Source: Desulfogranum japonicum DSM 18378 (GTDB lineage Bacteria; Desulfobacterota; Desulfobulbia; Desulfobulbales; Desulfobulbaceae). Taken from it: a stretch of DNA of 64,000 nt. The translations under genes were made by a program, and so were the position numbers. The notes under the pieces are model-generated. The model saw only the letters and a program-made list of their open reading frames with translations, was not told the origin of the DNA and made no database searches. Where the stretch lies: positions 133,943-197,942 of the forward strand of contig NZ_KE386993.1 of NCBI RefSeq assembly GCF_000429945.1. Direction: 5' to 3'. Positions 13,588-55,715 of this stretch are shown here, in pieces (position 1 is the first letter of the stretch; the number at the start of each line of letters is the position of its first letter).

Positions 13588-14535
13588 TTATTTTTGGCTT
13601 CCACATCCGCCGGAACTGCAGGCACAACCCCCTGTATTCAGGGTGTTCAGGGTAACACCTTTTGCGGGCAGACGATTTTCAACGGCTGTAACAACCTTGT
13701 CAAAAGCCTCGGTGGCCGGTGTTTTTTCGTCACCGGAAAGATATGGGGTGCCACTGTCACCTGCTGTAACTACTCTGGGATCCATTGGAACCTTGCCAAG
13801 GAAAGGCAGATCAAAATCACGGGCAGTCTGTTCCCCTCCACCAGAACTGAATATGTCAACGGTCTGCTCACAATGCGGGCAGATAAACCCTGACATGTTT
13901 TCTACAACACCCACAATGGGCATTTTCATGGTTTTACAGAAGTTAATCGATTTGCGTACATCGGCCAGAGCTACTGCCTGGGGTGTTGTTACGACTACAG
14001 CATGTACATTGGGAATGGTTTGAGCCACAGACAGAGGCTCATCACCCGTACCTGGAGGGGCATCAACCACCAGATAGTCAAGCTCTCCCCAGTCCATATC
14101 GGCAACAAACTGACGGATGGCCTGAATTTTCAACGGACCTCGCCAGATGATCGCCTCATCCCTGTCTTTCATCATGTACTCGAGGGAAACGACTTTCAGG
14201 TTGTCGTTATAGCTCAGAGGAGGAATGAGACCGTTGGGATCCTCGGGGGCGGTCAGAGAGCCTGTAAGATTGAGCATGCGGCAGATATCAGGTCCGTGCA
14301 GATCCACGTCCATGAGACCGACCTTGTACCCTTTTTTGGCAAGGCTCAAGGCGAGGTTGACGGCCACTGTAGATTTGCCGACTCCTCCCTTGCCACTCAT
14401 GACCAGGATTTTGTTTTTGATTCTTCCAAGAGATTTGTTAATTGCAATATCCTGTTGCGCGAGATGGGCATCTGCTGAATTGCAGCTGCCAGTTTGTTCT
14501 CCACTTCCACAGGATCCTCCACAGGAACTACTCAT
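13588..14535 (-). CDS. mrp: Mrp/NBP35-type Fe-S scaffold ATPase
   Basis: A P-loop ATPase of the Mrp/ApbC/NBP35 family that holds and transfers [4Fe-4S] clusters. The deviant Walker A KGGVGKST is near residue 50. There are Cys-rich ends: CGGSCGSGEQTGSC at the N-terminus, a CPHC pair late in the protein and CACSSGGCG at the very end. I choose the ATG at 14535 because GGAGG lies five bases upstream; a GTG at 14547 is the alternative. The two terminal cysteine clusters are more than in E. coli ApbC and are typical of anaerobes. Confidence 0.9.
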   Translation of the reverse strand: MSSSCGGSCGSGEQTGSCNSADAHLAQQDIAINKSLGRIKNKILVMSGKGGVGKSTVAVNLALSLAKKGYKVGLMDVDLHGPDICRMLNLTGSLTAPEDPNGLIPPLSYNDNLKVVSLEYMMKDRDEAIIWRGPLKIQAIRQFVADMDWGELDYLVVDAPPGTGDEPLSVAQTIPNVHAVVVTTPQAVALADVRKSINFCKTMKMPIVGVVENMSGFICPHCEQTVDIFSSGGGEQTARDFDLPFLGKVPMDPRVVTAGDSGTPYLSGDEKTPATEAFDKVVTAVENRLPAKGVTLNTLNTGGCACSSGGCGSQK

Positions 14536-15277
14536 ATTTGCCTCCACTTAGGTTCAAAACAAAAAAATCAGAGTCTCTCTATCTCTTTCGGGCATGTTAT
14601 CCGTGATGACATACCGATGAATTGTCATTGTTAACAACGCTTTTCCTTTCGTCACAGATAGAACACGATACGAATGGAGAATTGTGTTTCTAGACAAGAA
14701 TATGCTATATACTCACTTCCCTGCAAACTTCCAGGAATTTTTGGAATAACTCTTTCATTAGAAGGGAAAGGGAGCACTGCATTTCTTTCAAACGCTATAA
14801 CCTGTACGGATTTCACGTCACCAAATGTTGTGCATTTTAATCTGCTAATGTAATGCCGGAAGCATGAAAAGCAATGAAAAACGCTAACCTTTCGAACTGG
14901 TATTCCGGGTGGCTGTTTGAAAAAATATGTCGGTGGTGTACCTGTCGGTTTATCGGGAGCGTGTAGCTGTTACCGCCACTCGAACTGGCAAAAATGATCT
15001 TTTCAGAAAACAATATGAAAAACGAGGTTGCGGGTATGACAGCGTTTTTCTTGATTTCTAATTGTCAGAATAGTTATAGTGATTACTTATTGTTCAATTC
15101 CTGGTTTGCTTTAGGGAAAGCTTGAATAGCGTATAATCGGTGAATGATGGTTCATATTTTTTAGTTAAGCTATCTTTACTTGCGCACTATACCACTTGTC
15201 TCTAGGGAAGCCTCCCGGGAGGCTGTCAGAGAATGCCAGGTAAGACTAGCTTCAGAAGCGATGAGTGTGGAGGAATT
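14536..15277. other. Long intergenic region before hsp20 with 16-bp palindrome
   Basis: This 740-base gap lies between divergent genes. A perfect 16-bp palindrome, AGCCTCCCGGGAGGCT, lies at 15209-15224, about 55 bases upstream of the hsp20 start; it could be an operator or a hairpin in the leader. A TATAAT at about 15133-15138 may be a -10 box, but its -35 partner is poor. I see no RNA gene or coding frame. Confidence 0.4.
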
Positions 15278-36640: not shown

Positions 36641-36714
36641 TGGGGGATGGTCTAACGGCAAGACAGCGGACTCTGACTCCGCTTATCGGGGTTCGAATCC
36701 CTGTCCCCCAGCCA
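36641..36714 (+). tRNA. tRNA-Gln (CUG anticodon)
   Basis: The acceptor arms TGGGGGA (36641-36647) and TCCCCCA (36704-36710) pair fully, followed by G and an encoded CCA (36712-36714). The anticodon stem GCGGA/TCCGC holds loop CTCTGAC, with anticodon CTG. The T arm is GGGTTCGAATCCC. Its 3' end is the attachment site of the integrative element that follows. Confidence 0.97.
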
Positions 36715-36910
36715 TCTTGTTGTAATCTCTAAATATTTTTCGACCTTAACGATTTTATAGCGCGCAGGATTTCAATAGTGTCACACAGAGGTGTCACACA
36801 AAATGAAATCGCATGTGCCTTCCTACGTTTTCAAGAACCGTTTTGGCGTCTTCCATTTTCGTGCTAGAATTCCCAAAGATATTCGCGAAAAATATCACAT
36901 CAAAAAAGAA
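36698..36910 (+). repeat. attL and integrase leader (left copy of 213-base direct repeat)
   Basis: Seven mismatches in 213 bases, with no indels, separate this from 55503-55715. The first 17 bases are the tRNA 3' end (TCCCTGTCCCCCAGCCA), the likely crossover core. The rest is integrase promoter and the first 36 codons of the integrase. Confidence 0.9.
36778..36800 (+). promoter_or_regulatory. Paired GTGTCACACA sites, left end
   Basis: Two direct copies of GTGTCACACA start 13 bases apart (36778 and 36791), just before the integrase start. The same pair with the same spacing lies near the right end (55421 and 55434), so these look like integrase arm sites. Confidence 0.6.
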
Positions 36911-38332
36911 GTAATTCAAAAATCACTCCGTACAAAAGATCAACGCACTGCTATGAATTTGGCAAGGGTGCTGTGGGTAAAAATGAGCGAAAATAATTGG
37001 CTTGATGAAATTGAGGATAAGTGCGCCCAAGACGAACAGGAGCTTGCTAAAGGGCGTCGTTTATATCATGAGTTGAACAAGATCGCGAACCGTACTGATT
37101 CGCTCCAGAGCGATGTCGAGGAGTATATGAACACTCTGGCCAGTTCAGAGGAGCAATCTCTCAAGAAGTTTGCGGAATACGCTAATGAGCGGGAAGTTGA
37201 AAAAGAGACTCAAGAAACATGCAGACCTGTTCAGCAAGTGACTCCTGCCGTTGTCGAACCTGTAGAAACTCCCCAAGAAACAATAATTCTATCGAAAGCA
37301 TATGAGCAGTTTGTAGATTGGAAAAAGAACGACTGGAGACCTGAGACGACCAAGAAATCTGCTGCCGCAGTTGAGCAACTCATTACCATTGTTGGCGATA
37401 TTCCTTGCAACAGGCTGACTCTGGACCATATGAAAACGTTCAGGGATATGTTGATGAAACTGCCTTCAAGGGTCGATTTACCACCCTACAAAGGTAAGAC
37501 GTACGATGAAATCTTGAAAATGGAGATTCCTGATACGAAAAAGCCTGCTGACAAGACCTTGAAAAATAAGTTCGGTTATGTGCTTTCCTTCTTAGATTAT
37601 TGCTCAAGTGACGGTTATTCCGTTATTGATCATAGGAAAGTGTTCGAGCAGTTCAAAAAGAAAAAGAAGGTGTCTAAAGTTCGAATGCCTTTCGCTCCTG
37701 ATGAACTGAAACGACTTTTTGAGAGCAAGGAATATCAAACTTGCACTCACAATACGATAGCACATCACTGGATACCGTTGATTGCGCTATTTACAGGGGC
37801 AAGGCTGAATGAGATTTGTCAGTTGGCGAAGAGCAATATCAAGCGGGATGAAGAGTCGTCAATCTGGTATTTCGATATTAATGCAGAAGAAGGGAGAAGT
37901 CTCAAGACTGCGGCAGCTATCAGGTATGTGCCTATTCATGATCAGTTGATAGAGCTTGGTTTCTTGGAATATGTCGATTCTGTGAGTGATGGTGGGCGAT
38001 TGTTCCCAATGCTGAGTAAAAACAGTAAAGGAGAGTATGGTGCCCAAATATCGAAGTGGTTTAACCGAACGTACAAGAGTGAAAAACACTGCAATATTGA
38101 GATAGGGCAGGGCGAAATGAAAGATTTTCACTCATTCCGTAATACCTTGATAAACACTCTCAAGCAAAAAGGGGTGCCAGTTGCATCAGCTAAAGAGATT
38201 GTCGGTCATGAGGACGATGATATTACGTTTGGTAGATATGCTAATCCTCTCGATTTGCCGAACAAAAAGAAGATTCTCGATATGGTAGAGTATCCAAGTA
38301 TTGATTTTGGGAAAATCAAATATAATATATGA
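36803..38332 (+). CDS. int: Tyrosine site-specific integrase
   Basis: A 509-residue recombinase that should insert and, with help, excise the element at tRNA-Gln. The N-terminal part (MKSHVPSYVFKNRFGVFHFR) is of the DUF6538 type, followed by a SAM-like core-binding domain (residues ~165-260). The catalytic domain has Arg in FTGARLNEICQL (near 333), HSFRNT (near 443), VGHEDD and Tyr in FGRYAN (near 479). A GTG at 36791 is also in frame, but the ATG is conserved in the relic copy at 55608. It lies in the usual place, beside the tRNA. Confidence 0.95.
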   Translation: MKSHVPSYVFKNRFGVFHFRARIPKDIREKYHIKKEVIQKSLRTKDQRTAMNLARVLWVKMSENNWLDEIEDKCAQDEQELAKGRRLYHELNKIANRTDSLQSDVEEYMNTLASSEEQSLKKFAEYANEREVEKETQETCRPVQQVTPAVVEPVETPQETIILSKAYEQFVDWKKNDWRPETTKKSAAAVEQLITIVGDIPCNRLTLDHMKTFRDMLMKLPSRVDLPPYKGKTYDEILKMEIPDTKKPADKTLKNKFGYVLSFLDYCSSDGYSVIDHRKVFEQFKKKKKVSKVRMPFAPDELKRLFESKEYQTCTHNTIAHHWIPLIALFTGARLNEICQLAKSNIKRDEESSIWYFDINAEEGRSLKTAAAIRYVPIHDQLIELGFLEYVDSVSDGGRLFPMLSKNSKGEYGAQISKWFNRTYKSEKHCNIEIGQGEMKDFHSFRNTLINTLKQKGVPVASAKEIVGHEDDDITFGRYANPLDLPNKKKILDMVEYPSIDFGKIKYNI

Positions 38333-39487: not shown

Positions 39488-39829
39488 TCAGTTACGTTTG
39501 CTTAACGACTCAATTATATTTATAAGGGCTTTTGTGAGGTCGAATTCTTTTATCACATCGCCTATTTTTACCAAAATGAGCTTGGCTAATATCGTGATTC
39601 CGTTCAAGCCGATGTAGCCTACGAAACTTGCCCCTAGCATTTTATATGTGTCTGACCAGTTCTTTTCTTGAACAAGGCAAAAATAATTAATCCCGATAAA
39701 GATTGATACAGAGAGTACAATCAGAAATTCTCGTCTTGTCTTTATCTTGTTAAATTCACTCGCAAAACCACCGAAAACACAAAAGAAGATATAGGTCAGG
39801 GCTTTTTTTAGTAATGCAAAGTTTTCCAT
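39488..39829 (-). CDS. Holin-like small membrane protein
   Basis: A 113-residue protein with hydrophobic segments near residues 8-24, 35-53 and 65-88, and a charged C-terminal tail. The layout FGGFASEFNKIKTRREFL then LGASFVGYIGLNGITIL resembles LydA-type phage holins, which make inner-membrane holes for endolysin release. No endolysin is seen beside it. It is the last gene of the leftward operon with the prohead protease. A non-lytic membrane protein cannot be excluded. Confidence 0.5.
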   Translation of the reverse strand: MENFALLKKALTYIFFCVFGGFASEFNKIKTRREFLIVLSVSIFIGINYFCLVQEKNWSDTYKMLGASFVGYIGLNGITILAKLILVKIGDVIKEFDLTKALINIIESLSKRN

Positions 39830-39844
39830 TCTCTACACATGGTC

Positions 39845-40198
39845 TCAGCGTATCAGATCAGCTAATTCTTTGATCATTTGCCTTTTGTAATTGTTTATTT
39901 CTCCGAGCGTTGCTTCGTCTGCTTCATCAAGGTCAACTTGGAGCACCCCTATCTTTCGATAGAGGGTTAGTGTGTCTTCTAAGTCTTTGAGCAATACTCG
40001 GCAATCTGCCGATTCGTCATCGTATGGATTGGTAACGGAGATAGACGAGTCGTGATTGCCGGTATATGCATAGAAAGCGTCAAGCATTCTGAGGCAGTAA
40101 AATCTGACTATCGATTCCGCTGTCTCTGGCTCTAAGGAATAATGCACAAGGACCGTAATCAGACTGCTTGGTAAATTGACATCTTCCTTAGTGATCAT
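39845..40198 (-). CDS. Small acidic helical protein, prohead operon
   Basis: A 117-residue, mostly helical, acidic protein (TLTLYRKIGVLQVDLDEADEATLGEI). I recognise no family. Its start overlaps the end of the prohead protease gene by 11 bases, so they are translated together. By position, a head-scaffold or chaperone partner of the protease is possible, but this is guesswork from context. Confidence 0.6.
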   Translation of the reverse strand: MITKEDVNLPSSLITVLVHYSLEPETAESIVRFYCLRMLDAFYAYTGNHDSSISVTNPYDDESADCRVLLKDLEDTLTLYRKIGVLQVDLDEADEATLGEINNYKRQMIKELADLIR

Positions 40199-40901
40199 GA
40201 ATGCTCCCCCTCAGAATGTTCGCAATGACATCAGATATGGGGTCATGTTTCTGGTATCTCTGCTTGTGCTCTTGCTGGAGGAGCAAATCTTGTCTGCGTA
40301 TTTCTGCGAATGCTTCAGCGATCGTCGGCTTCTTGATCTCTTTTTTTGCTTCTTCGATCACTTGCACCCATTCATCATTCTGACAGATCCACTCAGCGCC
40401 TTCGTAGATGCCATTTACAAATGCTTCTGGTGCTGAAGGGTCGGTAACAATATCAATTGTGCGGAGCTGATAATCTTCATCAACCATGTATGCACTTTCA
40501 GTCTTTGTCATTGAGCCGACGCCTCTTGAAGAGACAGCAAGCTGAACGCCATCGTTGATTAGTCCTTTGACGATTGTTCCCATAGGTGTTGAAAGTATTT
40601 TTGCACATCCATACCAGTTGTCTCCTTCGCGTTGCAGATCAGTAATGAGGTGCGATGCTCTCTCTGGATTGATTGCAGGTGTATCTGGGTGATTCAATTC
40701 ACCTAGGGAACGTTTCGTTTTAACATACGTGCTGACGTATTCATTAACGGCTTTGTCGAGAACAGAGGCAGGGTAAAATCTGCCATTTCTGTTCTTGATG
40801 TTGCCTTGTAAGAATATGCCGTGAATGCAAAGATCGCCGTCTTGTTCGTCGATTGTTGATTCTGTAAATAGGTCTTGGTGTTTATCTATTAATAACTTCA
40901 T
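40188..40901 (-). CDS. T4 gp21-like prohead core protease
   Basis: A 237-residue protein resembling the T4 gp21 scaffold/protease family (peptidase U9 type), which matures phage proheads by cleaving core proteins. The blocks are in family order: HGIFLQGNIKNRNGRFYPASVLD; LGELNHPDTPAINPERASH, with probable catalytic His71; AKILSTPMGTIVKGLINDG; and VSSRGVGSM, with probable catalytic Ser125. A C-terminal Gln/Lys-rich tail follows. T4 encodes this between portal and capsid genes; here none of those is recognised, which is the oddest feature of the element. Confidence 0.8.
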   Translation of the reverse strand: MKLLIDKHQDLFTESTIDEQDGDLCIHGIFLQGNIKNRNGRFYPASVLDKAVNEYVSTYVKTKRSLGELNHPDTPAINPERASHLITDLQREGDNWYGCAKILSTPMGTIVKGLINDGVQLAVSSRGVGSMTKTESAYMVDEDYQLRTIDIVTDPSAPEAFVNGIYEGAEWICQNDEWVQVIEEAKKEIKKPTIAEAFAEIRRQDLLLQQEHKQRYQKHDPISDVIANILRGSIHDH

Positions 40902-40907
40902 GGTTGT

Positions 40908-42038
40908 CTACTTCTCTTTTTTGTTTCTTTTATCAGGTAGATAGGGTGATAGTCTGAGTCGCGAGCAGTTGTATTCATATTGTGCTAACGCGACTTGCTG
41001 GAAACAGAATGACATCAACTCTCTCCACATTTCTTCCCTTGAAATAACAGCATATCCGGCTGTTGCAGTCTTCCATCGATCTATGATGCCTTTGTCCATG
41101 AAATAGCGCTCTTTGACAGACATTCCTGGGAAGAAGTCTTCTGTCTCTGGATGATTCAAAGACCATTCAGGGGTCCAGCTTCTAGGGCGATCAATATGCT
41201 TGAGCACGTATTTCCATGTTTCTATGGTCTTCTTTATATTTTTCAGGTCGTTAGGATATGTAAAGCAATTCGGCTCTCGCTCAACAGCGGCAAACTTATT
41301 GATTGCTTGGTAAATTATCGAATACAAAAGCGAGATACGATCTTCGAGTATTGCACCTTGTTCACGTGTGAGCGCTGAACGTACGGCAGTTGTTTTGAAA
41401 AACATATGTACAGGGAAAGAAAACATTCTCTGCTTAATGAATCTGTCGTGCGATCTTCCTAAGGCAGTATCTCTTTCAACGATGTCATGCGCCATAGCCG
41501 CATCGTAATATGCAAGAGCAAGCTGTCTGTAGTAAAGCTGGAGTATTACATTGAAGATCTCTCTTCGCTTTAATACTTGAAGTCGGTGGTTTTTAACTTC
41601 AAACAGGTCGATAATACCGGTCTCAACAAACTTCTGCTCTCCGTCTGTGGCTTTGTTCAGGAACAGGGAGATAGCAGATGCAGAAGCGCCTTTTTGAGAG
41701 TCGAAATATCCTGAAGATTCGATTTTGCCAGGGCGATGACTCGGACTCCACGCTTTCAGGTTATTGATGTTTGACGCGAACATGAACTCGGCTTGCTTGG
41801 CTTGCATCTGTGCTTTGTCGCCGTTACAATCAGCATAGTATTTTTTAGGATTCTGCTCTATCTGGTCAACTCTCTGCATGAGATCAAAGATATCTTGGTA
41901 CAGAATTGCTAGGCGATCTTCGCCGATATATTTTGAAACGCCGGAGCATTTGCTAGACGTTTCAATAAAGGGCTGTGGATCTAATTCTATAATTCTGGTA
42001 GATGCAAATTTTTCTCGGCTATCTGTAATATCAATCAT
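40908..42038 (-). CDS. Unknown 376-residue protein of the prohead operon
   Basis: No family recognised. The protein is mostly helical with a basic C-terminus. It has no signal peptide or membrane segment. It sits between two genes of the same operon: the ATG overlaps the upstream stop (TAATG), and the prohead protease gene begins six bases after its end. A head-related or structural role fits the context only. It is too short and too unlike gp20 to call a portal. Confidence 0.65.
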   Translation of the reverse strand: MIDITDSREKFASTRIIELDPQPFIETSSKCSGVSKYIGEDRLAILYQDIFDLMQRVDQIEQNPKKYYADCNGDKAQMQAKQAEFMFASNINNLKAWSPSHRPGKIESSGYFDSQKGASASAISLFLNKATDGEQKFVETGIIDLFEVKNHRLQVLKRREIFNVILQLYYRQLALAYYDAAMAHDIVERDTALGRSHDRFIKQRMFSFPVHMFFKTTAVRSALTREQGAILEDRISLLYSIIYQAINKFAAVEREPNCFTYPNDLKNIKKTIETWKYVLKHIDRPRSWTPEWSLNHPETEDFFPGMSVKERYFMDKGIIDRWKTATAGYAVISREEMWRELMSFCFQQVALAQYEYNCSRLRLSPYLPDKRNKKEK

Positions 42039-42343
42039 TATTCGCCCTCGCCTTTTGCAGTTATGTACTCGTGAGCGAATTCGATATAATCAGGTCCAGC
42101 AATGAGTTTCAGGAGCTTCATGATATCGAATGCACACTCAAGACAGAAATTGTCAGGTTTAACTTCGGCATTAATAGCATTTAGGTATTTTGCGTAGATA
42201 ACGCCGGAAAGAAACTCCTTGTTTCTGTCATTGAGTAATTCAATCAATTCTTCTATTGTGTTCGAACGGAATGTATCTACAAATTTTGTTTCAAAAATTT
42301 CTTGGTCTAATTCTGCTGATAATTCTTTAAATGTCTTCTTCAT
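42038..42343 (-). CDS. Small acidic protein, first gene of the prohead operon
   Basis: A 101-residue acidic protein starting MKKTFKELSAELDQEIFETK, probably all helical. GAGGAG stands well placed before the ATG. I recognise no family. It leads the five-gene leftward operon, and its promoter must lie in the ~195 bases shared with the divergent regulator gene. Confidence 0.6.
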   Translation of the reverse strand: MKKTFKELSAELDQEIFETKFVDTFRSNTIEELIELLNDRNKEFLSGVIYAKYLNAINAEVKPDNFCLECAFDIMKLLKLIAGPDYIEFAHEYITAKGEGE

Positions 42344-42494: not shown

Positions 42495-42516
42495 ATGTAT
42501 AAATATATTTATACAT
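42495..42516. promoter_or_regulatory. 22-bp perfect palindrome, likely operator
   Basis: ATGTATAAATATATTTATAC continues to a perfect 22-bp palindrome. It lies between two divergent operons, 22 bases before the ribbon-helix-helix gene. It overlaps possible -10 boxes (TATAAA, TATATT), so a repressor here could control both directions. Confidence 0.6.
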
Positions 42517-42538: not shown

Positions 42539-42733
42539 ATGGCAGAAAATAGACATAGAATGAAAGGGTGGAGCAAAAGATATGCGAAAGTTATGATTTC
42601 GTCATACATCGATCAATCTACAAAATCAGATATGAAAGAGGTAATTAAAATCTTAGGAATTAGTCAATCTGATTATATCAGGAGTGTTCTTGATAGAGCT
42701 AACAGGAAAGTATTAGACGAAGGGAAGATGTGA
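42539..42733 (+). CDS. Ribbon-helix-helix-like regulator
   Basis: A 64-residue basic protein. The pattern YAKVMISSYIDQSTKSDMKEVIKILGISQSDYIRSVLDRA is a beta-strand followed by two helices, as in Arc/CopG/MetJ repressors. AAGGAG precedes the ATG. The perfect palindrome directly upstream suggests autoregulation and control of the divergent prohead operon. Confidence 0.7.
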   Translation: MAENRHRMKGWSKRYAKVMISSYIDQSTKSDMKEVIKILGISQSDYIRSVLDRANRKVLDEGKM

Positions 42734-42858: not shown

Positions 42859-45633
42859 ATGCAGAATTTTAAAACTCACAAAAAAACTCTACTTTCTGAT
42901 TTCTTATCTCTTGCTAGTATTTATACGGTAATCAGAGATCAGGAATTTGATGAAGCAATACAGAAAATACGATCAACGGAAGACGATAATCAAAGACAGG
43001 AATTGAAATACGAACTTCCCGTATATTATCCATGTATCTCTTTTGACGGCGTTAATGCATCAATTGAAAAGTGCAAAGAGGTACAAAGTACCGGCGTCGT
43101 TCAGTTCGATATTGATAATATCCATGGCGATGAAGCAGAGCAATTCAAGCAAGAGCTAATAGAAAAGGTTCAAGAATTGATATATGCGTTTATTTCTCCT
43201 TCGGGTGGTCTGAAATTTGGTATCAAAACAGATTTCGTTTCATCGGAGAAGAATGTCAACGACGTTTTCAGGTTCGTCTATGATGCTATTGAGGCAAGGC
43301 TACAAAAGAAATTTCCTGAAATGAAAGCAGACAGGCAATGCAGAAGTATTGTTCTTCCGTTTTTCCTGTCATCTGATTCAAAGGCATATTTCAACGATGC
43401 TTGTGAGACTGTAGCAGTCAAAAAGGATGCTGAGGCTCAATATCTGAAATGGAGTGAACAGAAAAAACAGGCTGAAGAAAGCAACAAACAGGTGTCTTCT
43501 GACTACTCAGACACCATGGTCTTGGAAGCTCTGGACGCTATTCCTAGCGTACTTCCGTATCATGATAGGTATTACATCAATGTGGCTCTAATCAACGGTA
43601 TAGGGGCGCATAACGCTATTCCACTACTTGCTGATCACTGGCAACACGAGAAAGGTCGTGATCACATTTTGAGTCAACTCCAAGAGCAGGCAAAAACAGC
43701 TTCGAAATGTAATAATGATCTGAGATACTTTTTCAGCGTTGCAAAAAAGAACGGCTACAAGAGCAGATACGGTGGCAATCGTCGGAGGTTAATCGAGACT
43801 CGAAGTAGTGGTTCATATAGGGGCAACAAGAACTACTCAATTGATGAGGCTGATAAGGCACTGGAACTGAAACTTGATAGGTTCTTCACAGAAAAGCAGG
43901 ATCAGGCGTTAATGATCGAGGCTGGATTCGGCAAAACTACATCTGTTCTGAAGTACATCGTTAAACATGGAGCGCAAAAGAAGAATATTGCTTATTTCGT
44001 ACCGGAAAAGAAGCTCGGCGCTGAACTGAATGACGCAATCAAAGGGCTGAACAAAGGCAAGAAATTCGATATATTCAGAGAGCACTTGTTCAATCAAATT
44101 AGAGGATTGGAAGACACATGCGAAAAGAACAAAGTCAACAAGGCAGGTTTCAAATTCTACAGCAAGGACAGGTGCAAAAACTGCTTTTATCATCCTGGCA
44201 ATGACACAGGCTTTTCATGTGAATATTTTGATCAGTTCAACAGGAGCTGGCGTGGCGTTCGCTTTTATTCTCATGCTCATCTGTTTACTCCGGCAAGCGT
44301 AGACTACGGGTGGAAGGCGGATTTCATTGTCATCGATGAAGATATTTTGAACACGATGATTGAAACTTCATGGGTGCGGAAATGTGAGTTCACAGTCAAA
44401 CTCGCAAGAAGCGTGGCTGGATACATTAAAGCAGGCAAAAGCATCGAATACGGGCTTGCAGATAACAGCGACAAAATACGGGAAGAGCTGAAGAAAGTAG
44501 AAAAGCAACTCAAGTCAGATATTCCAGAAAATGAACGAGCTGTGTTCATGAGATACAAGGATGATCTTGAAAGCATGGTGAAGCGAGAAAACGCTTTTAT
44601 CGAATTGAAAAGTATGGCGGGCAGCAATGAAGATCAGTTCAAGATTACAAAGAAGCGTCAAATAGACGAACGATGGGAAGGAATTCCGATTCTGTTACTC
44701 GATGCTTCGGGAAAGCAGGAAGTCATCGAAAGGCTGTTCGAGCGTGAGTTTGAATTTTCAGAAATAGCAGTCAATTATCAGGATAACGTGGAAGTGATTC
44801 AGGTAAAAGATAAGTGGGCTTCTAAAAAATGGGTCGGTGATAATCTTGAAGCTGTAAACGAGCTGATTGATATTTTTGAAGACGATGACACGGCTGTGAT
44901 CTCTTACAAGGCAATGATTGAAGATAGGCAAGATGCAATGTGGTTCGGGGGTCTTCGTGGCAAAGACGGATTCTCTAATAAAAAGCGTCTTCTTGTAGTT
45001 GGCAGACAGATGATTCCGTCAACTGATCTTCTCGCATATTCTCAGGTTATTTTCGACAGGGATATAGAGCGAACAGGCGATATGGAGCAGGTTGATAAAA
45101 TCGTCACGATGAAAGATGGCAACAATCAGCTTTTCAAAGGGCTGTACGATTACACAGATCACGAATTGAGGCTCTTGAATGAACATGTAAATCTGGCAGA
45201 AACTTATCAAGCGATTCATAGGCTCAGACTGATTCATGGCAATGAGAAAAAACAAGTGGTGCTATTCAGTCGTGAAGTTCTTCCGGTGACAGTGAACAGG
45301 TTGGTAGATTCAAGCGAGATTGGTTTTACAGATATTAGGCTGAAGTTCTTGAAGGCAGTTAAAAGTCAAAGAGTTTTGCCAGTGAAAGACAATAAGCTGA
45401 TTATAGATCTTACTGGCTTGATAGTGAAACAGATTAAAAATTTCAAGGAACGCGAAAGCGGCTGGATAGATGACAATATGCATTTCAAGACTGTTTCGGC
45501 AGTCTGCAAGAAGGGTCGTGGCAGAAAACAAAGTCGCGACTTCTATGTTTGGGGCAATGTTTCAAAGAAAGAATTCATTCAGGTTTTAAATGATCAATAT
45601 GGCTTCACGGTTTATTCCGATGCAAACAACTAG
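42859..45633 (+). CDS. Primase/helicase-like replication protein
   Basis: A 924-residue protein, probably the replicase of the element. The N-terminal ~190 residues resemble the BT4734/VirE-type primase-associated domain (LPVYYPCISFDGVNASIEKC, VVQFDIDNIHG, FISPSGGLKFGIKT). A PriCT-like helical region follows (~220-300). The helicase part has Walker A GFGKTTS (near 356) and a Walker B-like FIVIDEDIL (near 491). A Cys-rich insertion (CKNCFYHPGNDTGFSC) may bind zinc. It lies directly before the iteron cluster. No strong ribosome site is seen. Confidence 0.75.
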   Translation: MQNFKTHKKTLLSDFLSLASIYTVIRDQEFDEAIQKIRSTEDDNQRQELKYELPVYYPCISFDGVNASIEKCKEVQSTGVVQFDIDNIHGDEAEQFKQELIEKVQELIYAFISPSGGLKFGIKTDFVSSEKNVNDVFRFVYDAIEARLQKKFPEMKADRQCRSIVLPFFLSSDSKAYFNDACETVAVKKDAEAQYLKWSEQKKQAEESNKQVSSDYSDTMVLEALDAIPSVLPYHDRYYINVALINGIGAHNAIPLLADHWQHEKGRDHILSQLQEQAKTASKCNNDLRYFFSVAKKNGYKSRYGGNRRRLIETRSSGSYRGNKNYSIDEADKALELKLDRFFTEKQDQALMIEAGFGKTTSVLKYIVKHGAQKKNIAYFVPEKKLGAELNDAIKGLNKGKKFDIFREHLFNQIRGLEDTCEKNKVNKAGFKFYSKDRCKNCFYHPGNDTGFSCEYFDQFNRSWRGVRFYSHAHLFTPASVDYGWKADFIVIDEDILNTMIETSWVRKCEFTVKLARSVAGYIKAGKSIEYGLADNSDKIREELKKVEKQLKSDIPENERAVFMRYKDDLESMVKRENAFIELKSMAGSNEDQFKITKKRQIDERWEGIPILLLDASGKQEVIERLFEREFEFSEIAVNYQDNVEVIQVKDKWASKKWVGDNLEAVNELIDIFEDDDTAVISYKAMIEDRQDAMWFGGLRGKDGFSNKKRLLVVGRQMIPSTDLLAYSQVIFDRDIERTGDMEQVDKIVTMKDGNNQLFKGLYDYTDHELRLLNEHVNLAETYQAIHRLRLIHGNEKKQVVLFSREVLPVTVNRLVDSSEIGFTDIRLKFLKAVKSQRVLPVKDNKLIIDLTGLIVKQIKNFKERESGWIDDNMHFKTVSAVCKKGRGRKQSRDFYVWGNVSKKEFIQVLNDQYGFTVYSDANN

Positions 45634-45642
45634 ATCGTGGCA

Positions 45643-45946
45643 GAGTGCAACAAAACTCGCATTTGGATAAGAGAGTTATTGAAAGAATGAATACTGTACG
45701 ATGCTGGAAGCATCGTGTATGCGATCTCTGGCAAGATCGCAACGATCTATTCGAGGTCTTGGTAATGATTCTTTTTGATAATTTCGTCTGCTGTAAACAT
45801 CTGAATCAGTCCAATGTGCAACAAAAGTCTTTTTTGGATATATAAAATAAGGGCTCTTTATATTATATACGCAAAAGAGACTTTTGTTGCACTCTGTATT
45901 TTATATAAGCAAAAAAGACTTTTGTTGCATTCTATATTTTTCTAAA
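45643..45946. other. Candidate replication origin (iteron cluster)
   Basis: Four copies of a core close to GACTTTTGTTGCA: two inverted (complement strand, at 45645-45657 and 45816-45830) and two direct (45877-45891 and 45916-45929). The direct ones lie in adjacent 38-base units (45871-45908 and 45909-45946), with AT-rich spacers such as TATATAAAATAA. The cluster follows the primase/helicase gene, the usual layout of a phage or satellite origin. Confidence 0.65.
45698..45740 (+). other. Two tandem hairpins within the origin candidate
   Basis: ACGATGC/GCATCGT (45698-45716, 5-base loop) is followed after four bases by GCGATCT/AGATCGC (45721-45740, 6-base loop). No T-run follows either. They may be origin structures or a small RNA. 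Confidence 0.5.
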
Positions 45947-46073
45947 ACTAATTGGGGGGGGGCACTCAGCACAGCAAGCGCGGCAGACGCGGCTGAAATC
46001 GCGTCACGCGCAAATCAGAATCATGCTATCTCACTGATCATATATAAAAATAAAAACTTCAGGAGGAATTTAT

Positions 46074-46346
46074 ATGAACCAACAGTTAAGTGATAGCTTG
46101 ATGAAAAAAATCAATCGGAAATATTCTACAGTAAAGATGAACAGACCACTTGCTTACTTGCTAAGTGAAGCAGTTGAAGAAAAAGGTCTGGATAAGTTCT
46201 ATGTTGTAAACGAGGCAATTGTAATGTGGCTCAAAGCAAATGGTTACGGCAACCTCATCGATTTCCATATTCCTGTAAATAGAACTTTCAAAGATGAAAT
46301 GGAATATTGCAAATATCCTTTCGGTGAAAAGCCTAACATCAAATAA
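46074..46346 (+). CDS. Small ribbon-helix-helix-like protein
   Basis: A 90-residue basic protein with STVKMNRPLAYLLSEAVEEKG followed by FYVVNEAIVMWLKANGY, a strand and two helices like a small DNA-binding regulator. A very strong AGGAGG precedes the ATG. A GC-rich patch with a run of Gs (45952-45961) lies upstream. I cannot name the family; regulation of the large downstream gene is a guess from position. Confidence 0.55.
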   Translation: MNQQLSDSLMKKINRKYSTVKMNRPLAYLLSEAVEEKGLDKFYVVNEAIVMWLKANGYGNLIDFHIPVNRTFKDEMEYCKYPFGEKPNIK

Positions 46347-46418
46347 AAAGGAGCGGCTTTGACCGCTACCCGTTGTTTCTGAGCGCCAGCGATGAAATGA
46401 CGTATTCCCATAGATTTA

Positions 46419-46469
46419 AGACCTCTTTTTGACTGCATAAGTATTATAAAAACAGTCACAAAGGGGTCT
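46419..46469 (+). promoter_or_regulatory. Hairpin masking the ribosome site of the 679-residue gene
   Basis: AGACCTCTTTTTGACTG (46419-46435) and CAGTCACAAAGGGGTCT (46453-46469) match at 14 of 17 paired positions, with a 17-base loop. The right arm contains the AAGGGG ribosome site of the gene that starts at 46473. Confidence 0.55.
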
Positions 46470-46472
46470 CAA

Positions 46473-48512
46473 ATGTCTGCCACAACAACATCACAAATAA
46501 AATCAGAAATCAGCCAGTTTCTTTCAAATGTAATTGACGGAATGGTTGGCTATCAGAATCAGGTGCAATCGGAGATTGAATCTCGTTTCGTTGCACTTCA
46601 AAGCAGATCATTAGACCAGACTTTATCACCTGAATTTCGCGATCAATATGAGCAGTTGAACACATGGCGAAAAGATCATGTGGAACAACAAACTTCTATA
46701 GACAAAGAGCTTCTGAAAGAACTCAAGTCGATCAATAAATCCATCAAGAACAACAACGCGCTGAATCAGGAAGAGAAGAAAATTCTATTATCACTGAACG
46801 ATGCAACACGAGACTCGATAGAGAACAAATCAACGTCTGGAAGTTCAATCACGGAACTGCTCAAGCAGACATGGAATTCAGCTCTCCAGCCGATTTCTGG
46901 CATCACACGTATGCTAGATGTCAAGCAACGGTTTCCTGCTCTCCAGCGGCTATCTGACATGGTCTATGAAGCTGAAAAGATATCACTTTCACTGGTTGAA
47001 GATACCGAGCCGAACAGGATAGACCAAGGGCAAGAATTGGTACGAATCGATGATGAAAAGCCTTCTCTGGTTCGTATGGAGTCTGGAGAAAACCTGCTCA
47101 AGAAAATTGATGAAAACACCAGAGAGACAAATGACCTGTTGTACCGATCCCAGAAAGGCAGTCTTGAGAGATCGCGAGAAGATGCACGAGCAGACAACCG
47201 GAAAGAAAGGGTTCTAAACCAGATCAACACTTCATTGGCATCTTTTTCAAGTTCAACTGGCGAGAGTGGCGATCTACGGGATGAATACAAATCTATCAAG
47301 AAGCGATATGAAAAGACAAAAGAGCGAATCGAGTCGTTTTCTTCATTTGCAAAAAAGGCAGTAAAAACGATGTTGTCAATGGTTCGAAGTTTTGCAAAAG
47401 GTGTGATTCGGATCTCCAAGTCTCTCATGTCAGGTAGCAGACTCACAAGCACAATGAAAATGGGTGAAAAAATTATTCCTCAACTGGCTCGTGCAGGTAA
47501 GTTGCTTGGCAGATTTTCAGTTCCACTGACAATAGCAATTACAACGATTGAAGGGGTTATCGGCTCATTCAAAAACATCAGCAATGCGGATGAAATCTTA
47601 GGTCGAACATCTACACTCACAGATAAAATTATTCTCGGCATCGGTGGCTTTGTTGAAGGGTTAGCGTCAGGTGTCGATTCAATCTTGTCATTGGTAGGCA
47701 TCAGTACGGATCTTTCTGGTTTCATTAAAGAAAAGTTAACTGTTCCTGTTGCCAACTGGTTCAATGATAACTTTTCAGGAGACATGATCGTCAAAGGGCT
47801 TGAATTTGTCTCTCCTATTCATTGGGCAAAGATGCTAGGCACAGAATTGATGGAGTTGAGTCACAACATATTCAGTCAAGAACTGCCTAAACTGGATATC
47901 AAATCTGTTGCTGTCAATCTGGCAAAATCTATTACAAGTTGGTTGCCTGATAGTGTTCGAACTCCGATTCTCAGATCATTGGGAGTAGATCTTTCTGAAG
48001 AAACACGTGTCATGCATAAGGACGATGGAGAAAATCTTGTTAAAAACCTTGAAAAGCAAGGTGTTATTGATCATTATTTCTCTGGAGAATCTGATATCAA
48101 CAATTGGAGAGAAATTGAAAAGCTGCCTCAGTCTGATCTGGCTAATCTAATCGCTTTCTGTGATTGGGATAGCGAGACAATGAACAGGTTGCAGGACATC
48201 TTGAACACGAAGCAAAACGGTTCACCTGGCATCAACTTCTCAGAAACAAGAGGATCGTCTTTGACGTTAATTCCTGCCGATTCACAGCCACTCGCTATTG
48301 CGAAGAATGAACGAATGCAAACCCTCATGGCAGACAAAGTGGAATACGACAAAGCAATGGAACAATGGAATCTCGATAATGCTGTTGTGACAACCGTCAA
48401 CAACAACAGGAGAGTCGTCAATTCTTCTGGTGGTTCATCAAGAGTTAATTTAGTCGTACCGCCTCATGAAACAGATCCAAAGATGGCAGCTCTTGCGATG
48501 TCGTTTTATTGA
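46473..48512 (+). CDS. Phage-structural-like protein, tape-measure-type features
   Basis: A 679-residue protein with a long coiled-coil N-terminus (residues ~1-130 and ~195-290) and a basic helical region. A central hydrophobic, Gly-rich part (about 325-440, IILGIGGFVEGLASGVDSIL) resembles sections of tail tape-measure or internal virion proteins. The C-terminus has the Asn/Val-rich pattern VVTTVNNNRRVVNSSGGSS common in structural proteins of large myophages. Exact role unknown. In a satellite it might be packed in, or alter, helper virions. It is the longest gene after the replicase. Confidence 0.5.
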   Translation: MSATTTSQIKSEISQFLSNVIDGMVGYQNQVQSEIESRFVALQSRSLDQTLSPEFRDQYEQLNTWRKDHVEQQTSIDKELLKELKSINKSIKNNNALNQEEKKILLSLNDATRDSIENKSTSGSSITELLKQTWNSALQPISGITRMLDVKQRFPALQRLSDMVYEAEKISLSLVEDTEPNRIDQGQELVRIDDEKPSLVRMESGENLLKKIDENTRETNDLLYRSQKGSLERSREDARADNRKERVLNQINTSLASFSSSTGESGDLRDEYKSIKKRYEKTKERIESFSSFAKKAVKTMLSMVRSFAKGVIRISKSLMSGSRLTSTMKMGEKIIPQLARAGKLLGRFSVPLTIAITTIEGVIGSFKNISNADEILGRTSTLTDKIILGIGGFVEGLASGVDSILSLVGISTDLSGFIKEKLTVPVANWFNDNFSGDMIVKGLEFVSPIHWAKMLGTELMELSHNIFSQELPKLDIKSVAVNLAKSITSWLPDSVRTPILRSLGVDLSEETRVMHKDDGENLVKNLEKQGVIDHYFSGESDINNWREIEKLPQSDLANLIAFCDWDSETMNRLQDILNTKQNGSPGINFSETRGSSLTLIPADSQPLAIAKNERMQTLMADKVEYDKAMEQWNLDNAVVTTVNNNRRVVNSSGGSSRVNLVVPPHETDPKMAALAMSFY

Positions 48513-50577: not shown

Positions 50578-50736
50578 GGTATCTTACCTGTATTATCGAG
50601 GGCAAGAGGCTATGGGTTTGAATGGTTAGGATATAATTGGATAAAACCATTGTAAAGATAGCCTAAATTCAGATTGATGTCACTCCCTCTGCAATCTATT
50701 TTGACAAGTAAAACACCGTCACAAAAGTATACGTTC

Positions 50737-50785
50737 GTGACACTCTGGAAAACAGTGTCACAAAGGTCTATATTGAATGTGACAC
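50737..50785 (+). promoter_or_regulatory. GTGTCAC-type inverted repeat before the resolvase gene
   Basis: GTGACACT (50737-50744) and AGTGTCAC (50754-50761) form a perfect inverted repeat with a 9-base spacer. A further GTGACAC lies at 50779-50785. The core matches the paired sites at both ends of the element. It may be a resolvase or regulator binding site. Confidence 0.55.
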
Positions 50786-50820
50786 TTCAATTACATTCAT
50801 TCACGGCACTCAGAGGGCAG

Positions 50821-51378
50821 ATGATGGCACCAAACGTAGGATACATTCGAGTCAGTACAAGCGAACAGAACACCGATAGACAGCTCGACGGGATTAATAT
50901 TGATAAGATGTTTGAGGAAAAGGTTTCTGGCAAGGATATGAAGCGTCCGCAACTTCAAGATTTGCTGAATTATGTTCGGGAAGGTGATCATGTTCATGTC
51001 CACGAGTTATCACGGTTAGGACGCTCTGTGATCGACCTACACAAGATCGTGAACGAATTGTTGGATAGAGGCGTCACCGTAACCTTTCACAAAGAGAATA
51101 TGACTTTTGTTCCTGGCAAACAAGCAGATCCGATTCAGGAACTCATGTTCGGAATGTTGGCAAACTTTGCTCAGTTTGAGCGGTCACTGATCAAGCAACG
51201 GCAAAGAGAAGGCATAGAGGCTGCAAAAGCTCGTGGCAAACATCTTGGTCGTCCACGTTCAATGACCAAAGAGCAAGAAGCAGAAATCAAACAGAAGAAA
51301 TCAGAAGGTGCAACGCCGACGCAACTTGCGAAAGAATATGGATGCAGTCGAGCACTGATTTATAAAATCATAAAATAA
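50821..51378 (+). CDS. Serine resolvase/invertase
   Basis: A 185-residue small serine recombinase of the Tn3-resolvase/Hin type. The catalytic Ser lies in VGYIRVSTSEQNTDRQL. LSRLGRSVIDL, GMLANFAQFERSLIKQRQREGI and a C-terminal helix-turn-helix (TPTQLAKEYGCSRALIYKI) follow. Two ATGs in a row (50821, 50824) follow GAGGG. A second recombinase beside a tyrosine integrase is unusual; it could resolve multimers after replication or invert a segment. The inverted repeats upstream may be its sites. Confidence 0.92.
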   Translation: MMAPNVGYIRVSTSEQNTDRQLDGINIDKMFEEKVSGKDMKRPQLQDLLNYVREGDHVHVHELSRLGRSVIDLHKIVNELLDRGVTVTFHKENMTFVPGKQADPIQELMFGMLANFAQFERSLIKQRQREGIEAAKARGKHLGRPRSMTKEQEAEIKQKKSEGATPTQLAKEYGCSRALIYKIIK

Positions 51379-52159: not shown

Positions 52160-53692
52160 TTATGTGATTCTCCCTGCCTGTTCAATAAGCTTTGGATAAT
52201 GTGACAGGTGGTGATTTAGAGTTGTGTCTGATGGATAAGAATTTGGCATTTCACCTCGAAGAGATGACTCTATGGAACGAATTATATCTCTTTTGAGATC
52301 TCCGCGATTCCAACTTTCAAAAATCGCATTTAGGCTTGTTCCAGAAAGTCTGATATATTCATTTATTACCTCAGAAACCCTAATCGTTGAGAGAGTGCTG
52401 CCGTGACGATCTTTAGGCGCATATGTAGCTATTGTCTTGCTTAAACTTGGGTTAAGTTTAGGAATCTCATCCTTAGAAATACCTACCCCTCCTGCAATCA
52501 AATCATATAAATCTTTTCTGGTATCTTTTAGCCATGTGAGAAAAATTAGGTAAACAAGGTGAACAGGAGCTTCGGTAAAGGTTAAACATACTGAATCGAT
52601 TATGACACAATATTGAATCATATCTCTAAGACCAATATTCAAAGCGTCTGACATGATGGCAAACGCCTCTACCTTTATATTTTTCCCTTCAAACAATTTC
52701 TGGTCAAGAGGGCTAAAAAGGTTTTGTCTTGTATCTAACTTGTACTGATAAAATAAATATTCAGCAAATTTTTTTCTATCTGGTTCCTTTAAGCTGTATG
52801 TCTGGTCAAAAAATCTTTTAATATATCTAGAACTATCAAAGTCTTGACCATAAATCTTTTTTATTGAATGGCAAAGCTGTTCTGACGCAGTTGCTACAAT
52901 GAAATATACTCCAGGTACACCAAATAGGTGTTTTATATTTTCTAATAATTCAATAGCATAATTTGGGCGACAACGGTCTAGTTCATCGACAAATATAAAT
53001 ATTGGTATATTGATTGATTTTAAAGTATTTAAATGATGTGTTAAATTCTCTAAGCTTACTTTGAAATCTGCAATAGTTTTCTTTGTAGAATTGTGTGAAG
53101 CTAAGAGACTCGCAGCAGCCTTAGAAACGACAGTTGATACTGTATTTTCTACTTCCTTTTTTAGCTCTTTATTCTCCTTATCTAGTTCAGTGGAAGTTTC
53201 TTCGTCTATTTCTTCATCAAAAAGCTCACCTATTTGCTCAATAGACATTCCTGCTAATTTTTTCGCTGCAATGCTCCAGAGGAAAGGTGAAGATGGGCTT
53301 GCAAGTTTTTTACCTTTATTATACCACTCTGACAATAAATGCTTGACTTTCGTAGCTCTTTTTTTACCAATTTTTTTATTGAAATAAGGGTCAAGTTGAG
53401 CGTTGATTGTCGAAATAAAAGCTATCAATGGCTCTTTTGAGAAATCATTTTGCCATGCATCAAAATAGACTACAGGATGTCCCTTTGCAGAAAGCTCGTC
53501 TGCCCAATTTGTCAGGAAGTATGTTTTTCCAAAACCCCATTCAGCATTAACATTTAATACAAATGAACCATCGTTTAATTCACTGTGTCCTAGTTTGCTT
53601 TTTCCGATTAAATACTCAGACAAGAAAGCGGCTTCTTCCTCTCTTTCTAGTTTATCTATTTCCCAATTATCGCCGAAGATAGTTTTAGACAC
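52160..53692 (-). CDS. KAP-family P-loop NTPase, likely anti-phage
   Basis: A 510-residue NTPase of the KAP/STAND-related group. Walker A NAEWGFGKTYF (residues ~49-59), FDAWQND, and a Walker B site FVDELDRCRP near 236 are in family order. A long helical insertion lies between them. In many bacteria KAP NTPases are defence genes or phage-exclusion factors in mobile elements; that role is inferred. The GTG start at 53692 follows AAAGGAT. The AbiC-like gene upstream on the same strand forms a defence cluster with it. Confidence 0.85.
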   Translation of the reverse strand: MSKTIFGDNWEIDKLEREEEAAFLSEYLIGKSKLGHSELNDGSFVLNVNAEWGFGKTYFLTNWADELSAKGHPVVYFDAWQNDFSKEPLIAFISTINAQLDPYFNKKIGKKRATKVKHLLSEWYNKGKKLASPSSPFLWSIAAKKLAGMSIEQIGELFDEEIDEETSTELDKENKELKKEVENTVSTVVSKAAASLLASHNSTKKTIADFKVSLENLTHHLNTLKSINIPIFIFVDELDRCRPNYAIELLENIKHLFGVPGVYFIVATASEQLCHSIKKIYGQDFDSSRYIKRFFDQTYSLKEPDRKKFAEYLFYQYKLDTRQNLFSPLDQKLFEGKNIKVEAFAIMSDALNIGLRDMIQYCVIIDSVCLTFTEAPVHLVYLIFLTWLKDTRKDLYDLIAGGVGISKDEIPKLNPSLSKTIATYAPKDRHGSTLSTIRVSEVINEYIRLSGTSLNAIFESWNRGDLKRDIIRSIESSLRGEMPNSYPSDTTLNHHLSHYPKLIEQAGRIT

Positions 53693-53695
53693 TAT

Positions 53696-53917
53696 TTATC
53701 CTTTAATTTTAAGGGGTTTGATAACGTGTAAATTGATAAGATCTCTAAGGTCTGTATATTCGCCCAGTTTGTGCATGATTCTATGTACTTCCGAACCCCC
53801 GCATAAGCAGTCTACTGGGCTATTTTTACTAAAAACATTGTAATCTAGCAATATTTGGTGAAATTCTCCAAAGATCGATATAAAATGGCAACTCAAATAA
53901 CTCTGAAGGCTTGACAC
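53696..53917 (-). CDS. Possible 73-residue protein upstream of the KAP gene
   Basis: Open frame with a GTG start; it stops three bases before the KAP start. The sequence has no recognised domain and no good ribosome site. It may be a leader-coupled small gene or chance. The rest of the gap (53918-54024) is AT-rich, and I see nothing else in it. Confidence 0.25.
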   Translation of the reverse strand: MSSLQSYLSCHFISIFGEFHQILLDYNVFSKNSPVDCLCGGSEVHRIMHKLGEYTDLRDLINLHVIKPLKIKG

Positions 53918-54024
53918 GTATTACCCTAGGACTGATAGAATGCTAAACATTGTCAAAGAGCTCCTAATAACCATTTTGTAAATTTTTTTATTTGACTGAT
54001 AATAACAATGATAATTAATAAATT

Positions 54025-55227
54025 TTATTTTTTCAAATATTCTTTTTTTGTTTTTTCATTATTACCATACGCATCTATTTCATATTCGCATATATTACTA
54101 TGAATATCGTCTAAATCAAGTGGCAGATGTTCAAATAATTTGTATCTTTCAATTAATTTTTTAAATTTTTTTACTCCTATACTTCCAAGACCATGAAAAA
54201 ATAATAGTTCTAATTCGTTTCTTGTTAGCATTGATCTTATAATTTTAGAGTAAACTTTAGAGTAATTTCCATTTAATTCTTCATTCTCTTTTATTAAATT
54301 TATTATTTGGTACAATATTTTGTGATAATGTTCGAATGAAGGTGCTATATGATCATAGCATTTACTGTATCTTGTTATTGGATTATCATATGAATTAACT
54401 ATATTTAAAATAGGTGTTGTTTCATTGTTATCTACTTTAAACCCAAAATAATAAAGAGCATATTTAAATGATTCTCTTCCTGTGTATGTAGTATTTACCT
54501 CCTTGTAAAATCCCATTTCGTCTTTTTTGTATTTGTTATATTGACCTCTAGTCGAAACTCCGCCATATAAATAGGGTTCATCCCCGACATATTCCTTTTT
54601 GGTTTGTTCGAAAACAATAGAGTTAACGATTTCGTTATACATTTCTATTAGTCTAAAAAAGGTATTCTCAAATCTTTGTTTAGATAATACATTGTTTTGA
54701 CTTATAAATTCTATTCTGTTAAGTTCTATTTGTTCTATATTGTTTCTTAATTCTTTTTGCTGTATGTGTATTGAAATTATAAGTGCAGCGAATGCTATAC
54801 CAGAGAATAAGGTGTTTATCGCGCCAAAACTATCACCGATTGATCCAAAAATTGATCCGTCAGGTTTAGACGATGTTGCATTTGGCTCAGAAGGAATTCC
54901 TTTCGGTGGGTATTCTGCAAAGAAAAATATAATGTATAGTGTTATGATAAACAAACATATCCCAATAAATACCCATTTGTAAGAACGAAAGCTTTCCCAT
55001 AACGATAGATAAGGCGCCTTTCTTTCGTTTATTTCAAACTCCTTTATTATTTTGCAGCCATAATTTTCGTAAGTGCCATCATTGCCAAGCAAAACATGAA
55101 GAATCTTAAGAAAGTCGCTTTCCGATTCGAATTTGAGTCCAATTAATCGTTCTAAATTTGTGAGGTTATTTTCCTTTAATATTTTCTTGAGATTATCTAT
55201 CCCATCCTTGGTAATTTTATAGTGCAT
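54025..55227 (-). CDS. AbiC-like putative phage abortive infection protein
   Basis: A 400-residue, AT-rich protein resembling the putative abortive-infection family (PF16872 type). Two membrane helices (about residues 82-105 and 132-155, with NTLFSGIAFAALIISIHI) are followed by the signature stretches FENTFFRLIEMYNEIVNSI, YHKILYQIINLI and YSKIIRSMLTRNELELLFFH. The family is thought to kill or arrest infected cells. It lies at the right end of the element beside the KAP NTPase, the usual place for satellite-borne defence cargo. Confidence 0.75.
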   Translation of the reverse strand: MHYKITKDGIDNLKKILKENNLTNLERLIGLKFESESDFLKILHVLLGNDGTYENYGCKIIKEFEINERKAPYLSLWESFRSYKWVFIGICLFIITLYIIFFFAEYPPKGIPSEPNATSSKPDGSIFGSIGDSFGAINTLFSGIAFAALIISIHIQQKELRNNIEQIELNRIEFISQNNVLSKQRFENTFFRLIEMYNEIVNSIVFEQTKKEYVGDEPYLYGGVSTRGQYNKYKKDEMGFYKEVNTTYTGRESFKYALYYFGFKVDNNETTPILNIVNSYDNPITRYSKCYDHIAPSFEHYHKILYQIINLIKENEELNGNYSKVYSKIIRSMLTRNELELLFFHGLGSIGVKKFKKLIERYKLFEHLPLDLDDIHSNICEYEIDAYGNNEKTKKEYLKK

Positions 55228-55502: not shown

Positions 55503-55715
55503 TCCCTGTCCCCCAGCCATCTTGTTGTAATCTCTAAATATTTCTCGAGCTTAACGATTTTGTAGCGCGCAAGATTTCAACAGTGTCACACAGAGGTGTC
55601 ACACAAAATGAAATCGCATGTGCCTTCCTACGTTTTCAAGAACCGTTTTGGCGTCTTTCATTTTCGTGCTAGAATTCCCAAAGATATTCGCGGAAAATAT
55701 CACATCAAAAAAGAA
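55503..55715 (+). repeat. attR and relic of a second integrase leader
   Basis: This is the right copy of the 213-base direct repeat (seven mismatches). It contains the tRNA 3' core TCCCTGTCCCCCAGCCA. The sequence after the core is not chromosomal flank but the left end of another copy of the element, including its own GTGTCACACA pair (about 55583 and 55596). Confidence 0.85.
55608..55715 (+). pseudogene. Truncated second integrase gene
   Basis: The ATG and 35 further codons match the element integrase almost exactly (KSHVPSYVFKNRFGVFHFR, one change to RGKYH). The match then ends abruptly at an IS1595-like remnant. It shows that a related element once lay downstream in tandem and was cut down by IS activity. 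Confidence 0.9.

Follow-up and report, generated by a model that had tools for sequence, protein, structure and literature searches.

A cluster of repeats lying directly 3' of a replicase gene in Desulfogranum japonicum DSM 18378 is probably the replication origin of the integrated element that carries this gene, a reading to which we give a probability of about 0.6 on sequence evidence. The DNA analysed, called the window throughout, is a stretch of 64 kb (NZ_KE386993.1, positions 133,943-197,942, forward strand), and the cluster occupies positions 45646-45929 of it. We favour an origin because of the position directly behind a primase/helicase-type replicase, because of the anatomy of the repeats and because analogous inverted repeats are found in two of three relatives; moreover, all four boxes of the window fall within 284 bp, and the top inverted repeat and the strongest fold of the element are found here.

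The element is about 18.8 kb long and is integrated at a tRNA-Gln gene; two identical 41-nt copies of the 3' end of this gene, at 36698 and 55503, form its boundaries. Its features outside the repeat cluster are the following.

36641-36714, plus strand: tRNA-Gln (CTG), the integration target (ARAGORN, Rfam tRNA)
36698-36910, no strand: left att copy, from the tRNA 3' end into the integrase start (41-nt exact repeat with 55503; 213 bp at 96.7% identity)
36791-38332, plus strand: tyrosine integrase (PF00589, E 2.1e-11; phrog_1, E 2.2e-32)
39488-39829, minus strand: holin-like protein (Pfam E 1.1e-5, below the cut-off; PHROGs holin, E 3.9e-6)
40188-40901, minus strand: T4-type prohead core protease, gp21-like (PF03420, E 2.7e-38)
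42539-42733, plus strand: small ribbon-helix-helix-like protein, upstream of the replicase (RelB, E 0.0059, weak and below the cut-off; phrog_876 transcriptional repressor, E 4.6e-4)
42859-45633, plus strand: replicase of 924 aa, PrimPol-type N-terminus and SF2-like helicase motifs
50674-51378: serine recombinase (Pfam resolvase; best PHROG 'DNA invertase', E 2.7e-64)
52160-53692, minus strand: KAP NTPase (PADLOC PDC-S20, E 1.9e-92)
54025-55227, minus strand: abortive-infection-like protein
55503-55715, no strand: right att copy and second integrase start remnant, first 41 codons (41-nt repeat; 213 bp, 96.7%)

The prohead protease cluster (39488-42343) is on the minus strand, and the element thus has genes on both strands. 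Pfam and PHROGs scans of 20 of its ORFs gave no match to a capsid, portal or terminase protein, and Pfam found no ParA-type ATPase among them. Since the right att copy (55503-55715) runs on into the remnant of a second integrase start, 213 bp in all at 96.7% identity to the left one, another tandem element, now decayed, may formerly have lain alongside. The KAP NTPase (PDC-S20) and the abortive-infection-like gene (52160-55227, minus strand) are probably phage-defence cargo. Just upstream of the ribbon-helix-helix-like gene at 42539 lies a perfect 20-nt palindrome, TGTATAAATATATTTATACA, at 42496-42515, which is probably an operator.

Residues 49-178 of the replicase match BT4734-like_N (PF08800, E 2e-10) and the PADLOC PrimPol profile (E 9.7e-14). 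In the rest of the protein a P-loop (GFGKT), a DExD-like motif (IDED) and QAIxRxR-type columns are conserved in four relatives; the evidence for the SF2 family is weak, with E 0.11 to DEAD for the window protein, E 2.2e-4 to ResIII for the relative L010, just below the cut-off, and E 4 to ResIII for that of L015. Fusion of primase domains of this superfamily to remote SF2-like helicases, with homologues in T4-like phages, is described in the available part of PMC5862659. A profile search of solved structures returned no match, and an AlphaFold model of the replicase from the single sequence had a mean pLDDT of 33, which gives no basis to judge DNA binding and was counted against the origin. 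A UL9-like initiator (PF02399) was considered and rejected, as neither the window replicase nor that of any relative matched; the best PF02399 match in the same genome is on another contig and under the cut-off (E 0.28).

Exactly four copies of the 10-mer TTTTGTTGCA, referred to as the box, are present in the 64 kb window, all at 45646-45929 (284 bp) and two on each strand; shuffled sequences contain 0.48 copies on average and none of 100 reached four. The original prediction had described four cores, two per orientation, and these are all present, one of them with a single mismatch. The 13-nt core GACTTTTGTTGCA is exact at 45817-45829 (minus), 45879-45891 (plus) and 45917-45929 (plus); with up to two mismatches it has seven matches in the window against 2.9 expected (2 of 100 shuffles reach seven), and the three remaining ones are dispersed (12698, 29968 and 51102). 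The parts of the cluster are listed here.

45646-45658, minus strand: core copy D, with one mismatch to GACTTTTGTTGCA
45690-45760, plus strand: two small tandem hairpins (RNA fold z = -3.4)
45816-45930, no strand: candidate origin core, paired inverted cores with an AT-rich centre (strongest fold, top inverted repeat)
45817-45849, minus strand: unit A, 33 nt with core, left arm of the long inverted repeat
45859-45891, plus strand: unit B, 33 nt with core, right arm of the long inverted repeat
45897-45929, plus strand: unit C, 33 nt with core, direct repeat of B with a 38-nt period
45954-45962, plus strand: run of nine G directly after the repeats

When the 33-nt units were aligned, A (minus) and B and C (plus) had the whole core and an AT-rich tail in common, and D (minus) the core only. 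Two minus-strand boxes, 171 bp apart, stand to the left of the AT-rich centre and two plus-strand boxes to its right. The two adjacent 38-base direct repeats noticed earlier were recovered at 45854-45891 and 45892-45929 (38 nt, 89%). A also pairs with B in an inverted repeat of 35 nt (45816-45850/45858-45892, 89%, 7 nt between the arms) and with C in one of 33 nt (45817-45849/45897-45929, 94%). No inverted repeat in the 18.8 kb element is stronger than that of the cores, and the four best ones all lie directly 3' of the replicase. The region 45816-45930 is likewise the strongest fold among 468 windows of the element; folded as RNA it gives z = -8.5 (none of 200 shuffles as good), and the single-stranded DNA of 45634-45960 gives z = -7.3 (none of 100). 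The two tandem hairpins of the original prediction do exist at 45690-45760, but it had missed the long inverted repeat of the cores, and the dominant structure is this single AT-centred inverted repeat and not the two small hairpins.

The site was also correctly placed directly after the primase/helicase gene (stop codon at 45633, first box at 45646) and outside coding sequence, only mechanical ORFs of 66 and 69 aa overlapping it. The AT-rich spacers are there but are not special: 3.3% of the element's 60-bp windows are less stable as duplex than the repeat site, an unexceptional AT-richness. No match to the DnaA box (TTWTNCACA) was found in or near the repeat region. When set against iteron-type origins, the site thus has clustered, locally unique repeats of initiator size beside the initiator gene (four boxes, none elsewhere in 64 kb) and has neither a DnaA box nor an unusual AT-rich melting region. 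Typical iteron arrays contain more than two direct repeats, and only two tight ones are seen here. The ordinary AT-richness, the missing DnaA-box-like match and the small number of direct repeats were all counted against an origin.

A GC-skew switch at this point had been suggested as a check. Third-position GC skew is positive to the left of the site for genes on either strand, but the host genes on that side of the element share this bias, so that GC skew cannot decide on the origin; it was dropped as evidence, and the lack of a switch distinguishable from host bias was entered on the negative side.

In the host genome the repeat region is single-copy, the other match there being only its own inverted repeat. 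Searches of phage and plasmid collections by blastn gave short weak matches (E >= 0.04), none spanning the box cluster, and exact box-pair patterns had no match in viral contigs. The run of nine G has a counterpart in L010, where a G7 lies at 11791-11797, in the same sense and 3' of the replicase; neither the element nor the 20 kb locus of L010 has another run of seven or more G or C.

We then looked at the relatives of the replicase. Including its own genome, it was found in 4 of 257 genomes of the class by protein search and in 5 by profile, and in 3 and 4, respectively, of 395 genomes spread over the phylum. Back-translated patterns of the replicase and the prohead protease yielded no confirmed relative in genome or viral contigs. 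Three relatives with a full-length replicase and a 3' flank could be counted, namely L010, L012 and L015/L026, whose replicases are 30%, 27% and 23% identical to that of the window by alignment. Left out of the count were L014 (G148:C187), in which the replicase reaches the contig end, L027 (G148:C44), a weak C-terminal fragment of 106 aa, L023 (G002), a short fragment, and three weak partial matches to other proteins, G281 (L029), G577 (L030) and G606 (L028). What the window and all three relatives have in common is the replicase gene and that of the serine recombinase. The relatives (L010/L011, L012/L013 and L015) adjoin the same host genes, which we take to be of the comEC, pilT and selA types, and would therefore share an integration site.

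The box sequence of the window is absent from the three full-length relatives, and the repeats differ between them. In two of the three (L012 and L026), however, the strongest inverted repeat lies directly 3' of the replicase, unrelated in sequence to that of the window, so that of the conservation expected in the original prediction the architecture is retained in two relatives and the sequence in none. L012 has its two top inverted repeats there (61 nt, 77%; 53 nt, 85%), together with three exact copies of AAGAGCCATA in both orientations, two more lying elsewhere in its 19.9 kb. In L026 the top inverted repeat is a 29-nt AT-centred palindrome (79%) directly 3' of the replicase, with a margin of one base pair (23 pairs, versus 22 in a poorer 31-nt palindrome elsewhere). 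The full-length relative with the highest identity, L010, lacks such an inverted repeat 3' of its replicase. When places were ranked by fold, the 3' region came first in the window (468 windows) and in L012 (494 windows), it was the second separate place in L015/L026 (222 windows) after one inside the replicase gene, and the strongest place of L010 lay upstream of its replicase. Among the loci left out, L027 has no repeat within about 1.1 kb, and in L028 the 3' end of the ORF contains an inverted repeat. Under random intergenic placement, the chance of finding the top inverted repeat 3' of the replicase in at least three of the four loci is about 0.004, and in at least two of the three relatives about 0.024. 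The shared placement is thus suggestive, though not strong, support for an origin.

The repeats are unique and lie 3' of the replicase, whose N-terminus has a domain match, and two of three relatives have analogous repeats; from this we infer the following course. After excision of the element, its own replicase would bind the four TTTTGTTGCA boxes, of which A and B face each other across the AT-rich, self-complementary centre, C is a direct repeat and D an outlying copy. Binding would open the centre, possibly through hairpin extrusion, and the same protein would then unwind and prime for replication. Also counted against this origin were L010 and L027 without a repeat, the narrow margin and second fold rank in L026, the lack of a repeat sequence in common, and the ribbon-helix-helix-like gene that follows the repeats in L012, which fits an operator too. 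The origin claimed in the original prediction is accordingly kept as the probable reading for its position, repeat anatomy and recurrence in two of three relatives, with L010 as the exception.

Paired inverted boxes are typical of dimeric regulators, and the cluster could instead be an operator or a centromere at which a small DNA-binding protein, for instance the 90-aa product at 46074 or a ribbon-helix-helix protein of the element, controls the downstream operon or partition. A small gene does begin 144 bp beyond the last box, and in L012 the repeats are followed by a gene whose C-terminus matches RHH_1 slightly below the cut-off (E 8.3e-4), which makes an operator for the 46074 product more possible. 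That product, however, matches nothing in Pfam or PHROGs, the gene that follows the palindrome in L026 has no RHH match, and the ribbon-helix-helix-like gene at 42539 is preceded by the different palindrome described above. As promoter-like matches are at chance level and a ParA-type ATPase is missing from the 20 scanned ORFs, we hold this explanation to be rather unlikely.

We find it improbable that the repeats act in the replicase transcript, as 3' end hairpins, an attenuator or a small RNA. An RNA fold of high stability (z -8.5) immediately behind the stop codon and the two further small hairpins would suit such a role, but there is no plus-strand terminator-like site in 45500-46500, the single one being at 46367-46352 on the minus strand; no Rfam match other than tRNA was obtained in the window; and the long stem is AT-rich, with a B/C direct repeat that a simple hairpin would not need. 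It is very improbable that the cluster is a res or invertase site of the serine recombinase (50674-51378), even if this enzyme accompanies the replicase in all four full-length loci and paired inverted repeats would suit serine recombinases. The recombinase gene has its own upstream TGTCA/TGACA repeats in the window (50710-50770), in L010 (17183-17229) and in L026, less clearly in L012, which makes a res site at 45.8 kb unlikely; these repeats have no motif in common with the boxes and lie about 5 kb away. Those of the window, inverted and direct copies of TGTCAC/GTGACA, are probably the site of the serine recombinase.

The element is probably a satellite of T4-like phages. The original prediction had spoken of a satellite, and this is plausible for an 18.8 kb element at tRNA-Gln: it encodes a T4-type prohead protease as well as a tyrosine integrase, and the 20 ORFs scanned gave no match to capsid, portal or terminase proteins. 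The protease matches 2,485 of 50,697 phage records, those listed being cyanophage gp21 with 42-52% identity, and within the 257 genomes of the class it is found in its own genome only. Six phage records match the 679-aa protein after the repeat site weakly and in part, four of them annotated as a 'putative tail protein' of Rhizobium phages of about 193 kb; among 4 genomes this protein too is confined to its own. Taken with the gp21-like protease, these matches make a T4-like helper plausible. The protease adjoins proteins of 376 and 101 aa without matches (40188-42343, minus strand), the former limited to its own genome among 59 of the family, and this stretch may be a module with which a T4-phage satellite takes over heads. 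In the L026 locus, positions 14138-14794 (minus strand) encode a T4-type clamp loader (phrog_168, E 4.9e-36). TATAAATA, the T4 late-promoter octamer, has 10 copies in the window against 2.9 expected (reached in none of 100 shuffles), 8 of them inside the element, a count confounded by the element's AT-richness. In the open literature we found no phage satellite with a prohead protease or a T4-like helper; the one paper with both terms, 'phage satellites' and 'prohead protease' (PMC12324425), has them in another context in the part available.

A bolder and doubtful version would assign the cluster, as origin, to a family of T4-phage satellites not described before. The fused PrimPol/SF2-type replicase would itself serve as initiator and bind paired inverted boxes on either side of an AT-rich palindrome, an arrangement convergent with herpesvirus UL9 and its origin; each lineage would have private boxes co-evolving with its replicase, and the satellite of the window would bring a gp21-like protease of its own for takeover of T4-like heads. 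If the origin is confirmed, it would add an origin type for the BT4734-like PrimPol/SF2-like replicase family, for which none is described in the parts of the literature examined, and provide a small replicon open to testing. Confirmation would also anchor a family of satellites with an unusual gene content, namely a T4-type prohead protease or, in one relative, a clamp loader of T4 type, and help to ask how satellites exploit large lytic phages.

Among known systems, the herpesvirus origin has inverted boxes around an AT-rich palindrome and is served by UL9, an origin-binding SF2 helicase. The cluster is similar in having such boxes beside an SF2-type helicase system, and differs in that PF02399 does not match the replicase, so that any likeness would be convergent; UL9-like phage helicases are mentioned in PMC5862659. 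PLE, the ICP1 satellite, has origin iterons that contain inverted sub-repeats (PMC7145576, in the text available); the non-coding site, this type of iteron and the link to a large lytic phage would be shared, whereas the RepA_N initiator of PLE was not found in our element. This report and that of the PICI layout (PMC6092414) were both taken as support for the origin.

The P4-type origin is made up of ori1/crr and works with the alpha protein. A satellite-encoded primase-helicase and repeats near its gene are common to P4 and to our element, which differs in its primase family and in having a single cluster. The P4-like marker set given in the accessible text of PMC8628076 (alpha, psu, sid, delta, alpA and epsilon) had no Pfam or PHROGs match among the 20 ORFs. 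The 'P4-like' of the original prediction was therefore given up: the replicase is BT4734-like/PrimPol, and the layout matches that reported for PICIs (PMC6092414). In these, as far as that source was available, a primase-initiator gene, sometimes fused, is immediately followed by iterons around an AT-rich stretch; likewise, the replicase gene, fused here, ends at 45633 and a non-coding stretch follows with box sets (45646-45929) flanking an AT-rich centre. The differences are a BT4734-like PrimPol N-terminus with SF2-like motifs, only two direct units, the absence of identified PICI genes, and genes on both strands, whereas Gram-negative PICIs are transcribed unidirectionally (PMC6092414). Altogether, the PICI layout is the nearest one, and that of the element resembles PICIs more than P4; it is known from other phage satellites, and what is new is a different replicase with boxes private to it.
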